Of a stretch of DNA of 16,343 nt, positions 3,939 to 14,831 are shown piece by piece. Below the pieces are notes generated by a model. That model had not been told where the DNA came from, did no database searches, and saw nothing but the letters and a program-made list of their open reading frames with translations. The stretch spans positions 1 to 16,343 of the forward strand of contig JAPPKP010000367.1 of assembly GCA_028819955.1 (NCBI GenBank). The letters are read 5' to 3'. This DNA comes from Rhodospirillaceae bacterium (lineage in GTDB: Bacteria > Pseudomonadota > Alphaproteobacteria > UBA828). Made by a program: the position numbers and the translations under genes. The first letter of the stretch is position 1; each line of letters opens with the position of its first letter.

Positions 3939-4595
3939 CTACATGACGCCGTATTTCTCCCAGGCTTCGGTGGTGGAGAGGCCGGCCTCGATCTCCTGGG
4001 CGATGACGTTTTCGATGCGGCGCTTTTCCAGCGCCTTCTCCACGCATTCGGCTGTGACGTCGCTCGGGACCACGAGTACGCCGTCGTCGTCGCCCACGAT
4101 CAGGTCTCCGGGCCGGACGGCGACTTCGGCGATGCGAACCGGCTCACGATAGGCGACCACGCGGCCCCGGCCGCGCTGGTCCTGCGCGTAGGAGCCGCGG
4201 GCGAAGACCGGCAGCGTCATGGCGCGGATCTCCCGCGTGTCGCGCATGTAACCATCGAGCACGGCCCCCGCCGCGCCCTGGGCCAGCGCCCGTGTGGTCA
4301 TCAGCTCGCCCCAGAGCGCGAACGGCGGCGCGCCGGCGGCGGCGACGTAGACCTCGTCCTTGCCGAGGGAATCCAGGGCCTCGAACATCAGGCCGAAGCT
4401 GTGATCGTCCGGGGTCGCTGCGATCTCCAGCAGCGGCATCGCTCGGCCGACCAACGTGGCGCCGGGCATGGTCGAGCAGATTTCGGGCGGCAGGAACTGA
4501 TGGCGGCGGCCGAGGGTGTCCAGCACGTCCCCCAGCTGCGCGGTGGAAAGCTCGGCACGGACCTTCGCGAGAAGCGTGTCGGGAACCTGGGTCAT
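3939..4595 (-). CDS. RraA family protein (HMG/oxaloacetate aldolase-like)
   Basis: The 218-aa product belongs to the RraA / 4-hydroxy-4-methyl-2-oxoglutarate (HMG) aldolase family. It shows the GELMTTRA segment (about 96-103), the substrate- and metal-binding D114-G-x2-R118-D119, and the C-terminal GDLIVGDDDGVLVVP motif. In HMG/CHA aldolases these residues bind Mg2+ and pyruvate-type substrates. Because the gene sits last in a catabolic operon, an aldolase or decarboxylase role on a 2-oxo acid is more likely than inhibition of RNase E. Its ATG overlaps the preceding reductase stop as ATGA, implying translational coupling. It converges on the glycosyltransferase gene. Length is normal for the family. 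Exact substrate unknown. Confidence 0.88.
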   Translation of the reverse strand: MTQVPDTLLAKVRAELSTAQLGDVLDTLGRRHQFLPPEICSTMPGATLVGRAMPLLEIAATPDDHSFGLMFEALDSLGKDEVYVAAAGAPPFALWGELMTTRALAQGAAGAVLDGYMRDTREIRAMTLPVFARGSYAQDQRGRGRVVAYREPVRIAEVAVRPGDLIVGDDDGVLVVPSDVTAECVEKALEKRRIENVIAQEIEAGLSTTEAWEKYGVM

Positions 4596-5503
4596 GGTGT
4601 GTCTTCCTCCGGCTGGGTCGGGCGCGTGCGGTCGATCAGGGTCGCGATGACGGGATGGTAGCGCGCGCCGAGGCCGCGCTCGATGGCTTCGGAGAACAGC
4701 GCCTTGACCAGCGCAGCACCCTCGGCGTCGATTCCTGATTCGGCCGCGAGTTCAAGCGCGTAGTCGAGGTCCTTCAGCGCATAGGTTATGGGGAACGCGC
4801 CCTCAGGGTAGCGCTCCTCCAGCATCGCCTTCATGCCGTGGTTGCGCAGCGCGAAGCTGTCACCCGAGCTGCGGCCCACGGCCTCCAGGAACGTCCGGGG
4901 CTCGATCCCCTGACGGCGGGCGATCGCGAGGCCCTCGGCCAGCGCCCGGACGTTCTGGAAGAGGATCATGTTGTTCAGGATCTTGACTGCCTGCCCGCTT
5001 CCGGCCGGGCCGCAATGGGTCACGTCCTGGGCGATGTGGGCGAGCAGGGGGAGCAGGCGCTTCACCAGCGCAGCATCGCCGCCGACCATGATGCTGAGCG
5101 TACCGTCGACGGCGGCCTGGCGCGTGCGCGCGATCGGCGCATCGGCGAAGGCGATGCCGCGCGCGGCGAAGGCGCTTTCCAGCTCGCGGGCGAGCGCGGG
5201 CGGCGCGGTGCTGGTGTCGACCACCGTGCGCCCGGCGTTGACGTGCTCGATCAGGCCGCCGTCGCCGAGGCAGACGGCCCGCACCTCGCGGCCCGAGGGG
5301 AGCGACAGGAAGATTAGGTCGGCGGCCGCAGCGAGTGCTGCAATGGAGGGCGCGATGTCCGCTCCGTCGGCGGCGAGCCGCTCCAGCGGCGCCGGGTCGA
5401 GGTCGTAGGCGGTGACCGGCCCGTCGTGCTTGCGCACGAGGTTGCGGCACATGGGCTCGCCCATGACGCCCGTGCCGACGAAGCCGACGCGGATGCCGCT
5501 CAC
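4592..5503 (-). CDS. NAD(P)-dependent beta-hydroxyacid dehydrogenase (3-hydroxyisobutyrate dehydrogenase family)
   Basis: The 303-aa protein has the dinucleotide-binding GFVGTGVMG at 7-15, the inter-domain region from about 160, and the catalytic Lys174 with Asn178 in the GSGQAVKILNNM segment. This is the beta-hydroxyacid dehydrogenase family (3-hydroxyisobutyrate, tartronate semialdehyde, sulfolactaldehyde and related substrates). The substrate loop is unusual: the common DAPVSGG is replaced by DAPIART (121-127), recalling the GRT-type loop of YihU-like sulfolactaldehyde reductases, so a classic 3-hydroxyisobutyrate activity is doubtful. The start is GTG at 5503, overlapping the TGA of the flavoprotein gene (GTGA); homology begins at once. 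Its own stop overlaps the RraA-like start. The open frame above 5503 is a shadow within the flavoprotein gene. Confidence 0.88.
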   Translation of the reverse strand: MSGIRVGFVGTGVMGEPMCRNLVRKHDGPVTAYDLDPAPLERLAADGADIAPSIAALAAAADLIFLSLPSGREVRAVCLGDGGLIEHVNAGRTVVDTSTAPPALARELESAFAARGIAFADAPIARTRQAAVDGTLSIMVGGDAALVKRLLPLLAHIAQDVTHCGPAGSGQAVKILNNMILFQNVRALAEGLAIARRQGIEPRTFLEAVGRSSGDSFALRNHGMKAMLEERYPEGAFPITYALKDLDYALELAAESGIDAEGAALVKALFSEAIERGLGARYHPVIATLIDRTRPTQPEEDTP

Positions 5504-7005
5504 CGGTCGCGGCCTTCCTTCGCGAACCGGGCGGCGCCGGTGCCGGCGAGGCGGCCGAAGACCGCGCCCGAGACCAGGCCGGTGCCGCCCGGATAGTTGC
5601 CGTAGAAGAGTCCGCCGACCAGCTCGCCTGCCGCGTAGAGGCCGGGAATCGGCGCGCCGGAGACCGCCTGCACCTGGGCGCCGGGGTCGATGGTGAGGCC
5701 GCCGAAGGTGAAGGTGATGCCGCAGGTTACGGCGTAGGCCTCGAAGGGCGGGGTCTCGATCCGGTTGGCCCAGTTGGACTTGGGCGGCGCGATGCCGCGG
5801 GTGCCGCGGCCGTCCTTCACGGTCGGGTCGAAAGGGACCTCGGTCGTCACGGCGTCGTTGTACGCTCGCACGGTCGCGAGGAAGCGCGCGCCATCGATGC
5901 CTTCCATGCGCGCGGCAAGCGCCTCCAGCGTGTCGGCCTTCGCCTTGGTGACCTGGCGGATGCGGTACTCGTCGCGCAGCAGATGGGTCACCTGCGCGTC
6001 GAAGACCTGCCACGCCACCTGGCCGGGCTGCTCCAGCACGCGGCGGCCGTAGGCGGCGTAGGTGTAGTTTCGAAAATCCGCGCCCTCGTCGACGAAACGC
6101 TCACCCGCCGCGTTGACGACGATCGAGAAGGGGTAGCTGTGCTTCTGGAAGCCGTCGCCCACGGCGAGGTCGCCGAATTCCGGCGCGTTGCGGTCCCAGG
6201 CGACCGCGTGGCAGCCCGACCAGTTGCCGGCCGACATGGCGCCGGCGTCCAGCGCCATACGGATACCGTCGCCCTGGTTGAAGCGGGTCCCGCGCACCTT
6301 GGCGAGGTCCCAGCCGGGGCCGAGATAGCGTGCCCGCCACGCGGCATTGGCCTCGAAACCGCCGCAGGCGAGCACGACGGCCCGCGCACGGACGTCCGTC
6401 GTGCGCCCGCCGATGCGCGCGATCACGCCGTGCACGCCGTCGTCGTCGGTGAGCAGAGAGAGACCTGGGGCCTGGTAGTGGACGGCGATGCCCGCCTTCG
6501 CTGCAGCCTCGTAGAGAGACGCGACGAGGCCCGGTCCGCCGCCCCAGGCTTCGACCGCGAGCCCACCCCAGAAACGAAACCTGCCGTCCTCCCGCTTGAA
6601 TGCCTGGCGGCCGTAGCTCGGCTGGAAGCGCACGCCCTTCCCGCGCAGCCAGACGAGCGTGGGGTGGCTGCGGGTCACGAGTTGCTCGACGAGGTCGGGG
6701 TCGGCGCGGTACCGGGTGAGCCGCGCCATGTCGTCGTAGTAGTCGGCCTCGGTGTAGGCGCCGAAATCGGTCTCAGCGAGCTCGCGCTCGGAGAGATCGG
6801 GCATCAGCGCGCGGAGCGAATCGGCCCCGTCGAAGACCACCCGCATGGCGCCGGCGGTAAAGGTGCTGTTGCCGCCACGCTCCTCTTCCGGCGCGGCCTC
6901 CAGCAGGCGCACGCTGGCACCGGCCTCCGCCGCTGCAAGCGCTGCCGAGAGCGCGGCATTGCCGCCGCCCACGACCACCACATCGGCCCGGAGTTCGTCG
7001 CTCAT
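5500..7005 (-). CDS. TcuA-like FAD-dependent dehydrogenase
   Basis: The 501-aa flavoprotein belongs to the fumarate reductase/succinate dehydrogenase flavoprotein superfamily and most resembles FAD-dependent tricarballylate dehydrogenase (TcuA). Visible features are the N-terminal FAD fold VVVVGGGNAA (about 9-18), Glu36 at the end of the second strand, the ERGGNST loop (42-48), and a C-terminal FAD-binding segment with GELVGGLFYGNYPGGTGL. Known TcuA oxidises tricarballylate to cis-aconitate and is re-oxidised by the membrane protein TcuB. No TcuB, TcuC transporter or TcuR regulator is in view, so the substrate may differ. The start at 7005 has GGAGCGGG immediately upstream; the longer open frame would run into the phosphotransferase gene. 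It overlaps the downstream reductase by 4 nt. Cytoplasmic, with no signal peptide. Confidence 0.85.
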   Translation of the reverse strand: MSDELRADVVVVGGGNAALSAALAAAEAGASVRLLEAAPEEERGGNSTFTAGAMRVVFDGADSLRALMPDLSERELAETDFGAYTEADYYDDMARLTRYRADPDLVEQLVTRSHPTLVWLRGKGVRFQPSYGRQAFKREDGRFRFWGGLAVEAWGGGPGLVASLYEAAAKAGIAVHYQAPGLSLLTDDDGVHGVIARIGGRTTDVRARAVVLACGGFEANAAWRARYLGPGWDLAKVRGTRFNQGDGIRMALDAGAMSAGNWSGCHAVAWDRNAPEFGDLAVGDGFQKHSYPFSIVVNAAGERFVDEGADFRNYTYAAYGRRVLEQPGQVAWQVFDAQVTHLLRDEYRIRQVTKAKADTLEALAARMEGIDGARFLATVRAYNDAVTTEVPFDPTVKDGRGTRGIAPPKSNWANRIETPPFEAYAVTCGITFTFGGLTIDPGAQVQAVSGAPIPGLYAAGELVGGLFYGNYPGGTGLVSGAVFGRLAGTGAARFAKEGRDR

Positions 7006-7037
7006 CCCGCTCCAGCGATCTAGCTCGGACCGCCGCG

Positions 7038-8570
7038 TTACTCCGCTGCCCGCTCGCTGAGCCGCGATTGCAGCGCGGCGCAGAGCGTGCGCAGGACTTC
7101 GAGGCGGGCGTGCCGCTTGTTGTTGCCGGGGACCAAGGTCCACGGCGCCTCACGGGTGCTGGTGCCGGCGATCATGTCGTTGGCGGCGTCCTCGTAGGCC
7201 TCCCACTTCGCGCGGTTGCGCCAGTCTTCCTCGGTCAGCTTCCAGCTCTTGTAGGGGTTCTCCTTGCGCGCCAGGAAGCGCCGCTCCTGTTCGTCCTTGT
7301 CGATGTGGAGCCAGAACTTCATCAGCAGCGTGCCGTGGCCGATGATCTGCTCCTCAAAGTCGCGGATCTCAGCGTAGGCGCGGCGCCATTCCGCCTCAGT
7401 CGCGAAAGACTCGACGCGCTCCACCAGGAGCCGGCCGTACCAGCTCCGGTCGAACACCGCGATCTGCCCGGCCTCGGGCAACCGGCGCCAGAAGCGCCAG
7501 AGATAGTGATGGGCGCGCTCCTCGTCGCTCGGCGCGCTCACCTGGTGCACGCGGTAGCTGCGGGCGTCCAGCGCCGAGACCATGCGCCGGATGGCGCCCC
7601 CCTTGCCGCCGGCGTCCCAGCCTTCGAACACGAGCACGACGGAGAGCCCGTGCAGGAGGTTCTGCGCGGCGAGCCAGTAGAGATCGGCCCTGAGGCGCGC
7701 CATCGATTTCTCGTAGGCCTTGCGGCCGACGACGTTGGAATGATCGATCGTCGCCAGCGGCTTGACCTCCCGCACGGAGGCACCGACCACCGCCGGGCCC
7801 ACGACAGGTGCACGGGCGCGGAAGCCGGCATCAGGAGGGGGCAGGCCGGCAAGGCGCGCTTCGAGCGCCCGGTTCACCATGCCCAGCACCCTGAGCGAGC
7901 GATAGCGCGCGTGGCGGCCGTCGACCACGAGCCACGGCGCCTCGGCGGTGCTGGTGCGGGTGATGATGTGCTCCGCGGCCTCGTTGAAGTGGTCGTAGCG
8001 GTGCCAGTTGCGCCAGTCCCACTGTGAAATGCGCCAGTGGTCGCGCGGGTGCTTCTGCAGGGCCTCCAGGCGCTGCTGCTGAGCCTTCTTGTCGAGGTGC
8101 ATCCAGAACTTGAGGATCAGCGCCCCGTCGTCGGCGAGCGTCCGCTCGAACGCCGCGATGCGTTCGAGCTTGCGGTCGAGGGCGCTCGGCCCGATGCGCC
8201 CGTAGGCGCGGTCCAGCAAGGGTGCCGAGTACCAGGAGCTGAGGAAGAGCCCGAGCCTGCCGCGGGCCGGCAGGTCGCGCCAATAGCGCCAGAACTCGGG
8301 CCGCTGGCCTTCCTCTTCCGTGAGCCGGTCGTAAGCGTGGGTGACGATCCGGCGCGGGTCGAGCCACTCGGTGAGCAGGTTGACCGTCTCCCCCTTGCCG
8401 CCGCCGTCCACGCCGGCGAACAGCACGATGACGGGAAAGTCCGCCTGCGCCAGCGCACGCTGGGACTCCACCAGCGCAACCCTGAGTGCCGTCGCCTGCT
8501 CTTCGAACGCGGCCTTGGAAAGCTCCCGTGTCCGCTCGCGCTCGACCTCTTCGAATACCCGCGCGCTCAT
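7038..8570 (-). CDS. pap: Polyphosphate:AMP phosphotransferase (fused two-domain PPK2)
   Basis: The 510-aa protein is a duplicated PPK2 fold typical of class II PPK2 enzymes, which phosphorylate AMP to ADP using polyphosphate. Domain 1 (about 20-240) has the Walker A loop GVDGGGKG (53-60); domain 2 (about 280-500) has GWDAGGKG (317-324) and the lid/Walker B stretch DRSWYGRLLVER (374-385). In domain 1 the matching position reads SSWYSAPLLDR, without the Asp-Arg pair, so the C-terminal half is probably the active one. Both halves repeat the KFWxHxDK and DWRNxxxxxxY signatures, showing an old internal duplication. The start ATG follows GGGGAGGGAG, a strong ribosome site. It lies 32 nt upstream of the TcuA-like gene on the same strand, so read-through is possible although no metabolic link is obvious. 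Confidence 0.92.
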   Translation of the reverse strand: MSARVFEEVERERTRELSKAAFEEQATALRVALVESQRALAQADFPVIVLFAGVDGGGKGETVNLLTEWLDPRRIVTHAYDRLTEEEGQRPEFWRYWRDLPARGRLGLFLSSWYSAPLLDRAYGRIGPSALDRKLERIAAFERTLADDGALILKFWMHLDKKAQQQRLEALQKHPRDHWRISQWDWRNWHRYDHFNEAAEHIITRTSTAEAPWLVVDGRHARYRSLRVLGMVNRALEARLAGLPPPDAGFRARAPVVGPAVVGASVREVKPLATIDHSNVVGRKAYEKSMARLRADLYWLAAQNLLHGLSVVLVFEGWDAGGKGGAIRRMVSALDARSYRVHQVSAPSDEERAHHYLWRFWRRLPEAGQIAVFDRSWYGRLLVERVESFATEAEWRRAYAEIRDFEEQIIGHGTLLMKFWLHIDKDEQERRFLARKENPYKSWKLTEEDWRNRAKWEAYEDAANDMIAGTSTREAPWTLVPGNNKRHARLEVLRTLCAALQSRLSERAAE

Positions 8571-9498: not shown

Positions 9499-10845
9499 AT
9501 GTCCAACGACGCCGAAGCTGCGCTGCTCGATCGAGACAACGCGCACCTGCTCCATCCGCTGCACAGCCGTGCCATCCACGCCACCGGCAAGGTCTGGGTC
9601 GGCGGGGAAGGGGCCTTTCTCGTCGATGCGAACGGGGACCGCTTCATCGACGGCCTCTCCGGCCTCTGGAACAACACCGCCGGCAACGGCTGCCGCGAGC
9701 TGGTCGAGGCCGGAAGCAAGCAGCTCGCCGAAATGGCTTACGCGTCGGGGTATGCCGGCAGCACCAACCCGCGCGCGATCGAGCTTGCCGAGAAGCTCGC
9801 GCGGATCACCTACCCCGACATCAACCACTTCTTCTTCACGTCGGGCGGCGGCGAGGCGACCGACAGCAACATCAAGATGGCCCGCTACTACTGGAAGCTG
9901 AAGGGCCAGCCGGATAAGACCAAGGTCATCGCCCGCATCTGGGGCTACCACGGCGTCACGCTCGCCGCCATGTGCGCGACGGGGATGAGCATCTACTGGC
10001 CGGCGTTCGAGCCGCGCATGCCGGGCTTCACGCATATCCCGAGCCCCTATCCCTATCGCTACGAGGCGCCGGAGGGGGCGGAGAGCCAGGGCATCGCAGC
10101 GGCCGACGAGCTGGAGAAGGCCATTCTCGCGGAAGGGCCGGAGACGGTGGCGATGTTCATCGCAGAACCGGTGCAAGGCGGCGGGGGCGTGATTCCGCCT
10201 CAGCCCGACTACTTCCCGCGCATTCGCGAGATCTGCACCAAGTACGACGTGCTGATGGTGTCGGACGAGGTCATCACCGGGTTCGGCCGCACCGGCAAGA
10301 TGTTCGGCCTGCAGCACTGGGGCGTCGAGCCCGACATGATCCAGTTCGCCAAGGCGATCACGTCGGGCTACTTCTCCCTGGGCGGCATCGGGATCAGCGA
10401 CGAGATCGCCAGCACGATGCACGAGAGCGGCAAGCCCTGGATGCACGCCTACACCTACAGCGCGCATCCCACCGGCTGCGCCATCGGCTGCGCGATGCTC
10501 GACCTGGTCGAGCGGGAGGATTTTCCCGGCCAGGCCGCGGCGAAGGGCAAGCGCCTGCTGGTCGGCCTCAAGGACGCGCTCGCCGATCATCCCAATGTCG
10601 GCGACATCCGCGGCCTCGGGCTCATGTGCGGCGTGGAGTACGTGAAGGATCGGGCGACCAAGGAGAGCTTCGATCCCGGCGACGGGATCGCCGCCAAGAT
10701 CCACGCCGAGGCGGTGTCGCGCGGTCTCTTCAGCCGCTTCCGGCCGGACGTCTACATGGTCGCGCCGCCGATCATCATCGACGACGAGACCATCGACCGG
10801 ATGGTGGAGATCACTGCCGAGTCCACGCGCGCCGTCCTCGGCTGA
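9499..10845 (+). CDS. Class III (PLP-dependent) aminotransferase
   Basis: The 448-aa protein is a fold-type I class III (omega) aminotransferase, similar in style to SpuC/beta-alanine:pyruvate transaminases. The PLP site is complete: TSGGGEA (114-120), Y150-H151-G, D256 in SDEVITGFGRTG (255-266), Lys285 as the Schiff-base lysine in KAITSGY, and the YTYSAHP segment (318-324). Members move an amino group from a terminal amine or beta/gamma-amino acid to pyruvate or 2-oxoglutarate. The ATG at 9499 follows AGGGAGGAA, a strong ribosome site. It is the first gene of a five-gene run, and the Fe-S oxidoreductase starts 16 nt after its stop. That context suggests it aminates a carbonyl made by the downstream dehydrogenase, or supplies one to it. 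Substrate not determinable. Confidence 0.92.
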   Translation: MSNDAEAALLDRDNAHLLHPLHSRAIHATGKVWVGGEGAFLVDANGDRFIDGLSGLWNNTAGNGCRELVEAGSKQLAEMAYASGYAGSTNPRAIELAEKLARITYPDINHFFFTSGGGEATDSNIKMARYYWKLKGQPDKTKVIARIWGYHGVTLAAMCATGMSIYWPAFEPRMPGFTHIPSPYPYRYEAPEGAESQGIAAADELEKAILAEGPETVAMFIAEPVQGGGGVIPPQPDYFPRIREICTKYDVLMVSDEVITGFGRTGKMFGLQHWGVEPDMIQFAKAITSGYFSLGGIGISDEIASTMHESGKPWMHAYTYSAHPTGCAIGCAMLDLVEREDFPGQAAAKGKRLLVGLKDALADHPNVGDIRGLGLMCGVEYVKDRATKESFDPGDGIAAKIHAEAVSRGLFSRFRPDVYMVAPPIIIDDETIDRMVEITAESTRAVLG

Positions 10846-10861: not shown

Positions 10862-12193
10862 GTGGCGGGGCAGGGACGGCCCGAAGCGCGCCCCGCCATC
10901 GACTGGGAGGCGCCCGCGTACCTCGACGCAGGTGCGCTCGACGATGAGCTGCGCCGCGTCGCTGGTGTGTGCCACACCTGCCGCCGCTGCGAGGACCTCT
11001 GCGAGAGCTTCCCGAGGCTCTTCGACCTGATCGACGGCGCGGGCGGCGTGGCCGCGCTGAAGAGCGCCGGCTTCGAGAGCGTGGGCGCGGCCTGCACGCT
11101 CTGCGACATGTGCTATCCGGTCTGCCCCTACACGCCGCCGCATGTGCACGCGGTGGACTTTCCCGCCCTGATGGTTCGCCAGCGCGCGCGCGCGCTGCGC
11201 GACGGCGGGGTCGGCCCCATGGAGCGCGCCCTGGGCGAGACCGATCGCAACGGCCGCTGGTTCGGTACTTTCGCGCCGTTCGCCAATTGGGCGGCGCGCC
11301 GCGGCAACGGGCTCACCCGGTCCCTTATGCAAGCGTTCGCCGGCATTCACCGCGATGCGGTGCTGCCGCGCTTCCATGCCCGTCGCTTCAGCCGCCGGGC
11401 CAAGGCGTCTTCGGTTCCGCTGAACGAGCGAGCGCCGGCTGCCGGCCGCAAGGCCGTGATCTATGCGACGTGCTTCGTCGAGTACAACAACCCCGGCATC
11501 GGCCATGCGGCGCAAGGCGTGCTCGCGAAGAACGGCGTCGAGACCAGGGTCGTCTATGACGAATGCTGCGGAATGCCGCAGCTGGAGCGCGGCGACGTTG
11601 CCGAGGTGTGCCGGCGTGCCCGCCGCGTTGCCGCAACGCTCGGCTCCTGGATCGAGCGCGGCTGGGACGTGGTCGCGCCGATCCCGTCGTGCGCGCTGAT
11701 GATGAAGACGACATGGCCGCAGTACCTGCCGGACGATCCGGCGGTGGCGCGGCTCACGGAACGCACGCACGACATTTCGGAGTACATCGTGGGCATCGCC
11801 CGCGCCGAGGGGCTCGCCGAGGGACTGGCGCCGCTAGACGGCAAGATCGCACTTCACCAGGCCTGTCACGCCAGGGCCCAGGACATCGGTGCGAAGGCTG
11901 CCGTCATGCTGCGCATGATCCCGCAGAGCAACGTGCTGATGATGCAGCGCTGCGCGGGGCACGGCGGCACCTGGGGCGTGATGAAGCGGAATTTCGAGAC
12001 CGGCATGAAGGTCGGCGAGCCGGTCATCCGGCAGGCGGCCGAGAGCGGCCGCCCTTACCTCGCCTCGGAGTGTCCGCTCGCCGGCGAGCACATCGTGCAG
12101 GGGATGGAGCGGACCGGCGCGGGCCGCGCACACCCGACGCGCGCCTATCACCCGATCGAGCTGATGGCGATGAGCTATGGCATCGACACCTGA
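10862..12193 (+). CDS. CCG-domain Fe-S oxidoreductase (HdrD/GlpC-like)
   Basis: The 443-aa cytoplasmic protein has two 4Fe-4S motifs, C37-x2-C40-x2-C43-x3-C47 and C78-x2-C81-x2-C84-x3-C88, followed by two cysteine-rich CCG-type domains. The first CCG domain has C204, C235-C236-G and C277. The second has C335, C364 (CAG rather than CCG) and C404, so it is partly degenerate. Similar architecture occurs in the GlpC subunit of anaerobic glycerol-3-phosphate dehydrogenase, in HdrD, and in Fe-S proteins found beside rubrerythrin. I infer an electron-carrier subunit. Its place before a G2DH3-like subunit and a GMC dehydrogenase suggests it accepts electrons from that enzyme. No transmembrane helix is apparent. 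The GTG start has only a weak CAGGA upstream; translational coupling to the aminotransferase is likely. Confidence 0.85.
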   Translation: MAGQGRPEARPAIDWEAPAYLDAGALDDELRRVAGVCHTCRRCEDLCESFPRLFDLIDGAGGVAALKSAGFESVGAACTLCDMCYPVCPYTPPHVHAVDFPALMVRQRARALRDGGVGPMERALGETDRNGRWFGTFAPFANWAARRGNGLTRSLMQAFAGIHRDAVLPRFHARRFSRRAKASSVPLNERAPAAGRKAVIYATCFVEYNNPGIGHAAQGVLAKNGVETRVVYDECCGMPQLERGDVAEVCRRARRVAATLGSWIERGWDVVAPIPSCALMMKTTWPQYLPDDPAVARLTERTHDISEYIVGIARAEGLAEGLAPLDGKIALHQACHARAQDIGAKAAVMLRMIPQSNVLMMQRCAGHGGTWGVMKRNFETGMKVGEPVIRQAAESGRPYLASECPLAGEHIVQGMERTGAGRAHPTRAYHPIELMAMSYGIDT

Positions 12194-12614
12194 GGTCGCC
12201 CTCGATAAGCACGCGCAAGCGACGCTGACGGCGATGGCGCGCGCGCTCTATCCCCACGACTTCCTGGACGACTCCCCCTACCGCCGCGTGGTCGATATCG
12301 TTGCGGAGGAGGGGGGAGCAGCCAGACGCACGCTGCTGGCGGAAGGGGTCGCGGCGCTGGATGCGGTGGTCGGGCGCTCCTTCGTCGACCTCTCGGAGAA
12401 GGAGAAGGTGACGGCGCTCTATGCCATCGAGGGCTCGCAGTTCTTCGAGGTCGTCAGGGCCGCCACAGCGCGCCATCTCTACGACAATCGCGCGCTTTGG
12501 CCCCGTTTCGGTTACGAAGGGGCGTCGTCCCACCTCGGCGGCTATATCGAGCGCGGCTTCGACGACCTCGACTGGATCTCCGAGGATGAGGTGGAGGCGG
12601 AGGCCGACCGATGA
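12177..12614 (+). CDS. Gluconate 2-dehydrogenase subunit 3-like small subunit
   Basis: The 145-aa protein resembles the small (gamma) subunit of the gluconate/fructose/FAD-glucose dehydrogenase group (gluconate 2-dehydrogenase subunit 3 family). It has the N-terminal LTAMARALYPHDFLDD helix and the FFEVVRAATARHLYDN segment near residues 88-103. In known complexes this subunit carries a Tat signal and escorts the GMC subunit to the periplasm. This one begins directly in the mature-like domain: there is no twin-arginine motif and no hydrophobic stretch, so the complex should stay in the cytoplasm. Its ATG lies 17 nt inside the end of the Fe-S gene and its stop overlaps the GMC start (ATGA), indicating tight coupling. 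A later start at codon 20 is possible but would remove the conserved helix. Confidence 0.82.
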   Translation: MASTPEVALDKHAQATLTAMARALYPHDFLDDSPYRRVVDIVAEEGGAARRTLLAEGVAALDAVVGRSFVDLSEKEKVTALYAIEGSQFFEVVRAATARHLYDNRALWPRFGYEGASSHLGGYIERGFDDLDWISEDEVEAEADR

Positions 12615-14215
12615 ACCTGCCATATCTGGATGACGAGGACGTCCCCGCCGTCACCTACGACCTGAACGACGACAGCGTCGTCGTCGTCATCGGCTCGGGC
12701 GCCGGCGGCGGCACCATGGCCGACGAGCTGACCCGGCGGGGGATCGATGTGGTTCTGCTGGAGGCCGGGCCGCGCTTCAAGATGAGCGATTTCGTCAACG
12801 ACGAGTGGGCGATGTACGACCTGCTCACCTGGAAGGACGAGCGCGCCTGCACCGGCGGCTCGCCCATCGCCCGCGACTACCCGACGGCGCCGACCTGGAC
12901 CTGCAAGGGGCTGGGCGGCACCACGCTCCATTGGGCGGGCATGTGTCCGCGCCCGGATCCTTACGAGTTCAAGGTGCGTTCCACCTACGGCGAGGTGGAG
13001 GGTGCCGCCCTGGAGGACTGGCCGGTCGACCACGAGGAGATGGAGCCCTTCTACCGCGAGGCCGAGAGCAAGATGGGCGTCACCGGGCGGCACGGTATCC
13101 CGCACCACCGGGGCAACAACGCCTGCCGGGTCATGTCGCTCGGCGCGAAGCGCATGGGCTATCGCGACTACGGCCCCAACAACGTGGCGATCAACGCGGT
13201 GCCTCGCAACGGGCGCAACGCCTGCGACCAGATCGGATTTTGCATGCAGGGCTGCCGCTCGGGAGGCAAGTGGTCCACCTTCGTCTCAGAGCTGCCGCGC
13301 GCAGAGGCGACGGGCCATTGCGAGATTCGCACGCGCTCGATGGCGCTCCGCATCGAGCACGACGACGGCGGCCGGATCAGCGGGGTGCTCTATGCCGATG
13401 CCGACGGCCGCCATCACCTGCAGAAGGCGCGCGTGGTCTGCGTGGCGGCGAACTCGATCGAGACCGCGCGGCTGCTGCTCAACTCGGAGTCCAGCGCGTG
13501 GCCGGACGGGCTTGCCAACGGATCGGGCGCGGTCGGCCGGCACTACATGCGTCACGTGACGGCCTACATGTACGGAGAGTTCCCGAGGCCGGTGCGCATG
13601 TACCGCGGCATGGTCGTCTCCGGCATCATCCGCGACGAGGCGCGTCACGACCCGGCGCGCGGCTTCGCCGGCGGTTTCTACATGGGCTCCATGGGCCTCG
13701 GCCTGCCGTTCTTCGCGGCGTTCATGAGCCCGGGGCGCTGGGGCCGCGACTACACGAGCTGGATCGAGGCCTACGAGCGCGTCGGCGGGGTGTTCGTGAA
13801 CGGCGAGGATTTGCCGATCGCCTCCAACCGGGTGACGCTGCATCCCAGCGAGAGAGACCAGTACGGGCTGCCCATCGCGTGCCTCAACCTCGACGATCAC
13901 CCCAACGATCTCGCGATGAAGCGATACTCCTACCGCAGCGGGATCGCGATCCTGGAGGCTGCCGGCGCGCTCCGCATCTTCTGCTCGCCGCCGCTGCCGG
14001 TCTCGCACAATCTCGGCACCTGCCGCATGAGCGCCGACCCCGACGCCGGCGTGGTCGACCGCTGGGGCCGGAGCCACGAGATCCCCAACCTCTTCATCTC
14101 CGACGGCAGCCAGTTCACTTCGTCGCTCGCGGGCAACCCGACGCTCACCATCGTCACCCTCGCCATCCGCCAGGCCGGCCACATCGCCCGCCTCATGGGC
14201 CGCGGAGAAATCTAG
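12611..14215 (+). CDS. GMC-family FAD dehydrogenase, catalytic subunit with predicted [3Fe-4S] site
   Basis: The 534-aa protein is the catalytic subunit of a gluconate/fructose/FAD-glucose dehydrogenase-like complex. It has the FAD motif GSGAGG (28-33) with E51-A-G-P, the flavin loop GGTTLHWAG (102-110), the catalytic His466 in SHNLGTCRM and Asn509 in the AGNPTLT segment. Cys205-x5-Cys211-x3-Cys215 reproduces the spacing reported for the [3Fe-4S] ligands of Burkholderia FAD-glucose dehydrogenase, so I expect an intramolecular Fe-S relay. The enzyme should oxidise an alcohol or sugar hydroxyl to a carbonyl and pass electrons on rather than use oxygen. No signal peptide is seen. The ATG overlaps the small-subunit stop (ATGA). 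No cytochrome c gene follows; an AhpD-like gene starts 83 nt later. Confidence 0.9.
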   Translation: MNLPYLDDEDVPAVTYDLNDDSVVVVIGSGAGGGTMADELTRRGIDVVLLEAGPRFKMSDFVNDEWAMYDLLTWKDERACTGGSPIARDYPTAPTWTCKGLGGTTLHWAGMCPRPDPYEFKVRSTYGEVEGAALEDWPVDHEEMEPFYREAESKMGVTGRHGIPHHRGNNACRVMSLGAKRMGYRDYGPNNVAINAVPRNGRNACDQIGFCMQGCRSGGKWSTFVSELPRAEATGHCEIRTRSMALRIEHDDGGRISGVLYADADGRHHLQKARVVCVAANSIETARLLLNSESSAWPDGLANGSGAVGRHYMRHVTAYMYGEFPRPVRMYRGMVVSGIIRDEARHDPARGFAGGFYMGSMGLGLPFFAAFMSPGRWGRDYTSWIEAYERVGGVFVNGEDLPIASNRVTLHPSERDQYGLPIACLNLDDHPNDLAMKRYSYRSGIAILEAAGALRIFCSPPLPVSHNLGTCRMSADPDAGVVDRWGRSHEIPNLFISDGSQFTSSLAGNPTLTIVTLAIRQAGHIARLMGRGEI

Positions 14216-14298: not shown

Positions 14299-14703
14299 AT
14301 GGCGACGCTGCCGCTGGTGGACTACGACGACGCCCCGCCGGAGGTCCGCGCGGTCTACGACGACATCATGGAGACCCGCAAGACCGACTGGATCAACAAC
14401 TTCTGGAAGGTGCTGGCCAACGATCCGCCCACGCTTGCGCGCACCTGGAACAGCATCAAGGAGGTGATGGCGCCCGGCGCCCTCGACCCGCTGACCAAGG
14501 AGCTGATCTATGTCGCGGTGAGCGCCACCAACGGCTGCGAGTACTGCATCCGCTCCCACACCGCAGGCGCCAGGCGGCAGGGGATGACCGACGCCATGCT
14601 GGCCGAGCTGATGGCGGTGGTGGGCATGGCGAACGAGACCAACGCGCTCGCCAACGGCTACGCGGTCGATGTCGATGCGGCATTTCTGAGGGATGCCAAG
14701 TAA
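14299..14703 (+). CDS. Carboxymuconolactone decarboxylase/AhpD-family protein
   Basis: The 134-aa protein belongs to the CMD/AhpD-like superfamily. The hallmark C-x2-C-x3-H is present as CEYCIRSH at about residues 77-84, within the typical helical core, followed by the usual LAELMAVVGMANETNALANG helix. Members with this cysteine pair are often thiol-dependent peroxidases or disulfide reductases rather than true decarboxylases. The ATG at 14299 follows GGGAGGAG. The frame is open far upstream through the GMC gene, but only this start has a ribosome site and homology. As last gene of the dehydrogenase operon it may protect the Fe-S partners against peroxide or process the product; both are inference. 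Confidence 0.85.
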   Translation: MATLPLVDYDDAPPEVRAVYDDIMETRKTDWINNFWKVLANDPPTLARTWNSIKEVMAPGALDPLTKELIYVAVSATNGCEYCIRSHTAGARRQGMTDAMLAELMAVVGMANETNALANGYAVDVDAAFLRDAK

Positions 14704-14755: not shown

Positions 14756-14831
14756 TGGTAGCGGGGGAGGGACTCGAACCCCCGACCCATGGATTATGAT
14801 TCCACTGCTCTACCGACTGAGCTACCCCGCC
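14756..14831 (-). tRNA. tRNA-Met (anticodon CAT)
   Basis: A 76-nt cloverleaf is complete on the minus strand. The acceptor stem GGCGGGG pairs with CCCCGCT (one G-U at position 1-72). The D arm is GCTC/GAGC with an AGTCGGTA loop. The anticodon stem GTGGA/TCCAT encloses ATCATAA, giving anticodon CAT (14796-14798). The T arm is GGGGG/CCCTC with loop TTCGAGT. CCA is encoded in the DNA. The G1-U72 pair and the overall sequence fit an elongator tRNA-Met. The initiator tRNA would have an unpaired position 1 and GGG/CCC next to the anticodon loop; the lysidine-modified tRNA-Ile(CAT) is a less likely alternative. Confidence 0.95.

Follow-up and report, generated by a model that had tools for sequence, protein, structure and literature searches.

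Among the GMC-family dehydrogenases, those that carry a [3Fe-4S] cluster are known in exported forms linked to cytochromes, and direct-electron-transfer glucose sensors are built on them. A gene cluster in a Rhodospirillaceae bacterium raises the question of where such an enzyme works, and to what it passes its electrons, when its genes specify neither an export signal nor a cytochrome. The cluster lies on contig JAPPKP010000367.1, of which a stretch of 16,343 bases (hereafter the window) was analyzed. ORF analysis of the window showed three overlapping genes on the + strand in the order Fe-S protein, small subunit and GMC dehydrogenase. The overlaps are 17 nt between the Fe-S and small-subunit genes and 4 nt between the small-subunit and GMC genes, as a first-pass annotation of the same DNA had described. 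With moderate confidence, we propose that the products form a flavoprotein dehydrogenase of three subunits, located in the cytosol or peripherally at the membrane, in which the Fe-S protein replaces cytochrome c and electrons go to the quinone pool.

A six-frame scan of the window showed zero CxxCH heme motifs, in agreement with the first-pass annotation, indicating that the gene cluster contains no cytochrome c subunit. A class III aminotransferase gene (9499..10845, + strand), whose stop lies 16 nt before the Fe-S gene, is perhaps part of the same operon. A CMD/AhpD-like protein is encoded 83 nt 3′ of the GMC gene (14299..14703, + strand), and a tRNA-Met (CAT) gene lies just downstream of the three-gene operon (14756-14831, - strand). 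Farther away, genes for RraA-like, 3-hydroxyisobutyrate-dehydrogenase-like and FAD_binding_2 flavoprotein products stand in a row on the - strand (3939-7143) and possibly represent another catabolic cluster.

The catalytic subunit (534 aa; 12611..14215, + strand) matched Pfam GMC_oxred_N and GMC_oxred_C and has at least 7,680 homologues at E ≤ 0.001. Its best match among solved structures was fructose dehydrogenase (FDH; E 5e-44), followed by FAD-GDH. Alignment with FDH identified C205-x5-C211-x3-C215 (13223..13255, + strand) as the predicted [3Fe-4S] ligands, which is the C-x5-C-x3-C feature of the FDH, FAD-GDH and GADH complexes. All three cysteines were invariant in 28 aligned sequences, and their spacing is identical to that of Cys212/218/222, shown to hold a [3Fe-4S] cluster in BcGDH (PMC6719666). 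His466 (14006..14008, + strand), aligned with a histidine of FDH and invariant in the 28 sequences, is the predicted catalytic base, and Asn509 (14135..14137, + strand), nearly invariant in the same set, is the second predicted catalytic residue. These conserved residues support, at the level of sequence, a predicted path from substrate through FAD to the [3Fe-4S] cluster inside the GMC protein.

The small subunit (145 aa; 12177..12614, + strand) is probably a homologue of the Tat-exported hitchhiker or gamma subunit, and the Tat-type small subunits aligned were 36-43% identical to it. As for the subunit type named by the first-pass annotation (Gluconate_2-dh3, PF13618), 22 of 56 aligned relatives matched it at E ≤ 0.01, and the window protein itself gave a weak match (E 0.21). 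A leader is impossible on the window protein because a stop lies two codons 5′ of its ATG, which bears out the annotated lack of a Tat signal. The same holds beyond the window: among the best 120 of 790 small-subunit homologues at E ≤ 0.001 (window's own included; 124-153 aa), every one has at most 23 residues ahead of a conserved YPHD stretch, leaving no room for a leader (0/120), so that the suggested loss of export extends to the listed homologues. The other listed homologues were 61-90% identical to the window protein, and one comes from a Rhodospirillales bacterium. Four twin-arginine regex matches among the 120 all fell inside the mature domain and were rejected as Tat leaders. According to PMC6719666, the small subunit of BcGDH adjoins the [3Fe-4S] cluster; retention of the subunit without its leader is in line with a function in structure and not in export.

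Exported relatives were surveyed in a genome-contig scan that gave at least 80 loci with a GMC protein 50-58% identical to that of the window. A small-subunit gene was found upstream of the GMC gene in 79 of the 80 listed loci, the exception (L001) having four GMC genes in a row. An RRxFL-type motif was present in 76 of these 79 small subunits, the misses being the Actinobacterial loci L078 and L080 and the ambiguous L074, and in 96/101 once later, partly overlapping loci were added, with further misses in the apparently broken frames of L124 and L135. The Actinobacterial small subunits (L078, 7315-7974; L080, 7438-7986) stand beside GMC and zinc alcohol dehydrogenase genes and represent a second leaderless form, without an Fe-S protein. 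A VOC protein was encoded just upstream of the small subunit in 54 of the 79 loci, and Pfam scanning of the 76 upstream ORFs that could be selected from the 79 found Glyoxalase in 50 and Cytochrom_C in four.

Some of the exported relatives carry a c-type cytochrome gene at the position of the window's Fe-S gene. A CxxCH cytochrome was encoded within about 1.8 kb upstream in 13/79 listed loci, and the two annotated plasmids inspected, from Sphingobium and Indioceanicola, both have the order cytochrome, VOC, small subunit, GMC. The proposed replacement of the cytochrome is supported by this part of the exported set. The multiheme cytochrome that the first-pass annotation gave as the usual partner did not hold for the closest GMC relatives, whose neighboring cytochrome, where present, is monoheme. 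The 80 listed loci gave no strong match to the Fe-S protein of the window; L006 has a 24-bit match 3 kb downstream. At L154 (Sphingobium) and L155, a VOC/glyoxalase-like gene lies just 5′ of the Tat small subunit and behind the cytochrome c gene, with gloB and dld next in L154, and a sigma-54 regulator resembling that of L154 occurs in 14 of the 80 listed loci. Neighbors of the L154 type hint at diol, acyloin or 2-oxoaldehyde metabolism.

In the window, the place of the cytochrome is taken by a predicted electron-transfer subunit of 443 aa with a GTG start (10862..12193, + strand), which has at least 6,768 homologues at E ≤ 0.001. The homologue counts of the three products exceed what chance would give. 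Pfam detected a CCG domain (PF02754, residues 199-282, E 9.8e-10) and weak 4Fe-4S dicluster matches. In an alignment of 53 sequences, the first 4Fe-4S motif, CxxCxxCxxxC (C37/40/43/47; 10970..11002, + strand), was invariant, and the second, C78/81/84/88 (11093..11125, + strand), is an ungapped CxxCxxCx3CP that marks the clade. The first CCG half (C204, C235-C236, C277; 11471..11692, + strand) was likewise invariant, and the second (C335, C364-A-G-H367, C404; 11864..12073, + strand) is degenerate with invariant cysteines. The annotated pair of 4Fe-4S motifs and CCG cysteines thus stood in all 53 sequences, with the qualification that one CCG half is degenerate. The label "HdrD/GlpC-like" could be sharpened to RFO as the closest family, whose members are encoded in the rubrerythrin-DUF3501 clusters of peroxide defense. 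The protein scored below the NCBIfam equivalog cut-offs for GlpC, the anaerobic glycerol-3-phosphate dehydrogenase subunit C (176 of 278 bits for NF008369 and 105.8 of 279.9 bits for TIGR03379).

PMC5114695 describes RFO beside rubrerythrin and DUF3501 and proposes that it transfers electrons to aerobic-type rubrerythrin. The best 120 Fe-S homologues listed (window included) fell by their second motif into 70 with CxxCxxCx3C, 48 with CxxCxxCx4CP and two unclassed; the x4 class corresponds to the RFO family of that source (PMC5114695). All 37 RFO-like genome loci carried x4, a feature seen here and not a published criterion, and in the RFO-type loci whose neighbors were scanned rubrerythrin was confirmed in 5/5 and DUF3501 in 3/3. 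The x3 class formed one side of a branch with SH-aLRT 98 in a 74-row tree, and the branch was retained (100/97) in a 56-row tree from which the motif segment was taken out and whose root was set by the distant loci G019, G020 and G025. In the latter tree, the x3 class was nested within the x4 class beside the RFO of genomes G001 and G147 (joint set 100/100), indicating that the window protein is nested among RFO-type sequences. One further protein, P0066, combines a window-type second cluster with an RFO-type N-terminus and first motif on a contig of 1,533 bases, and is possibly a recombinant or a chimeric contig.

Co-location of the genes was scored from equal longest-contig sizes between the lists of the best 120 clusters each for the Fe-S protein, the GMC protein and the small subunit; sizes were matched, not coordinates. 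Besides the window, 19 of 71 entries of the x3 list (2 of the 71 unclassifiable) matched the contig size of a small-subunit or GMC entry: 16 matched small subunits, six GMC proteins and three both. Two of the shared contigs are just 2,605 and 3,709 bases long, so the genes on them must be close. Among x4 entries, 1/48 shared a contig size, on a 3.76-Mb contig that is little informative. True sharing may be commoner, since each list held the best 120 clusters, and chance matches are possible, since the size 20,561 was common to two Fe-S proteins of different sources. Taken with this caution, the repeated sharing supports the dedicated partner suggested by the first-pass annotation, and the co-occurrence it had asked for is a property of the x3 clade and not of the wider RFO family, in which the flanks of 37 inspected RFO-type loci, covered to at most 1.5 kb, contained neither GMC nor small-subunit genes.

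The GMC phylogeny (76 rows, quick method) placed all seven rows labeled as linked to Fe-S or leaderless small-subunit proteins within a 21-row set (SH-aLRT 96), nested in a 53-row set (SH-aLRT 99) without any Tat-linked row. The label does not mark one branch, since rows without a known context are interspersed among the linked ones. The 53-row set includes tandem GMC arrays from two genomes, G001 and G147, which are those sampled for their alphaproteobacterial order. In these genomes an array has as many as five GMC genes, no small-subunit gene was found anywhere and, at the thresholds used, the Fe-S relatives were of the RFO type only, indicating that the non-exported GMC group exceeds the three-gene operon. 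Individual arrays (L001, L142, L144 and L145) consist of two to five tandem genes from the GMC subfamily of the window and lack a small subunit. Probably, duplication of an RFO gene of the rubrerythrin-DUF3501 cluster took place in a lineage of uncultivated Alphaproteobacteria, where the gene became associated with a non-exported GMC dehydrogenase.

In the proposed mechanism, the GMC subunit would oxidize an alcohol, diol or sugar on FAD, from which the electrons would move to the [3Fe-4S] cluster at the surface of the same subunit. Over this cluster the small subunit, having no leader, would act as a cap and docking platform instead of as a Tat carrier. The CCG Fe-S protein would substitute for cytochrome c, with its two cubanes and one or more CCG-bound clusters relaying the electrons to the quinone pool. 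From the gene overlap and linkage we infer the transfer from GMC to Fe-S protein; complex formation and the direction of flow are likewise deduced, and quinone is the presumed acceptor by analogy with EtfD and other CCG proteins.

Alternative readings differ mainly in what lies beyond the Fe-S protein. A rather unlikely one is a cytosolic complex that makes no membrane contact and reduces a soluble carrier (ferredoxin or ETF) or another protein. It draws on the absence of a hydrophobic segment from the Fe-S protein, the small subunit and the GMC protein, and on the fold matches of the Fe-S protein, which include HdrB- and LutA-type CCG proteins, both soluble. However, a scan of 14 window proteins revealed neither ferredoxin nor ETF, and quinone reduction is served by EtfD, GlpC and GlcF, all three of them CCG proteins that partner flavoproteins. 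Since the Fe-S protein nests in RFO, it may instead have kept an RFO-like role, with GMC electrons reducing peroxide by way of the AhpD-like protein downstream or of a rubrerythrin whose gene lies elsewhere. The closeness of the AhpD/CMD gene to the GMC gene and the rubrerythrin-feeding role proposed for RFO (PMC5114695) speak for this, but that role is itself a proposal and the scan of the 14 window proteins revealed neither rubrerythrin nor DUF3501; we regard the reading as unlikely. Its bolder form is an alcohol-fueled cytosolic peroxidase for peroxide detoxification, in which the Fe-S protein, derived from an RFO copy that departed from its rubrerythrin cluster, feeds GMC electrons to a rubrerythrin- or AhpD-type peroxide reductase and not to quinone; it is unlikely as well.

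Continued export, or use of a cytochrome c encoded elsewhere, would agree with the 66/79 Tat-linked listed loci that, by the criteria used, likewise have no cytochrome gene directly upstream (in 5/79 the sequence available on that side is shorter than about 1.2 kb). No leader is possible on the window small subunit, none was seen in the 120 listed homologues and, to our knowledge, CCG proteins are cytosolic in the known systems, which makes this reading very unlikely. RFO-like relatives occur widely, in 172 of the 385 alphaproteobacterial genomes sampled (E ≤ 1e-100), and an ordinary RFO gene could adjoin the small-subunit and GMC genes by happenstance; the 17-nt overlap, a distinct clade marked by a cluster spacing of its own, contig sharing repeated down to 2.6-3.7 kb and the lack of such neighbors at the 37 RFO-type loci leave that explanation scarcely credible.

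The individual parts, and the principle of a CCG protein serving a flavoprotein, are already known. The pairing of a CCG Fe-S protein with a GMC enzyme, the absent export and the RFO origin were not found in searches of open papers, most subscription papers lying outside these searches. If true, the quinone-linked complex would show a compartment change of a GMC enzyme, with the leader absent, the partner swapped and the small subunit kept, and would separate the structural from the export role of that subunit. It would also give a first partner enzyme to an offshoot of RFO, a family of unproven function, and a new route feeding electrons from GMC-type enzymes into respiration inside the cell.

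Compared with the FDH, FAD-GDH and gluconate dehydrogenase complexes (GMC, hitchhiker and cytochrome c), the window likewise encodes a GMC subunit with surface [3Fe-4S] ligands and lacks the Tat leader and the cytochrome, having a CCG Fe-S protein instead. The nearest GMC and small subunits in named genomes are those of the Tat operons of Azospirillaceae, Sphingobium, Bradyrhizobium and others, which share the order small subunit, GMC; they differ in their Tat motif and in having cytochrome and VOC genes, where present, at the window's Fe-S position. RFO proteins, the nearest Fe-S relatives in the sampled genomes (up to 64% identity), have the identical invariant cysteine set, whereas their second cluster motif is one residue longer and their genes adjoin rubrerythrin and DUF3501, unlike the window's Fe-S gene. 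The CCG flavoprotein partners EtfD, GlpC, GlcF, LutA, LdhH and DgcB share the two cubane motifs and two CCG halves; we know of none that serves a GMC enzyme, and searches of open papers showed none either. EtfD has a membrane domain with heme b that the window protein lacks, yet it matched the window Fe-S model over 367 residues and is the electron acceptor of a flavoprotein, the role proposed here for the Fe-S protein.
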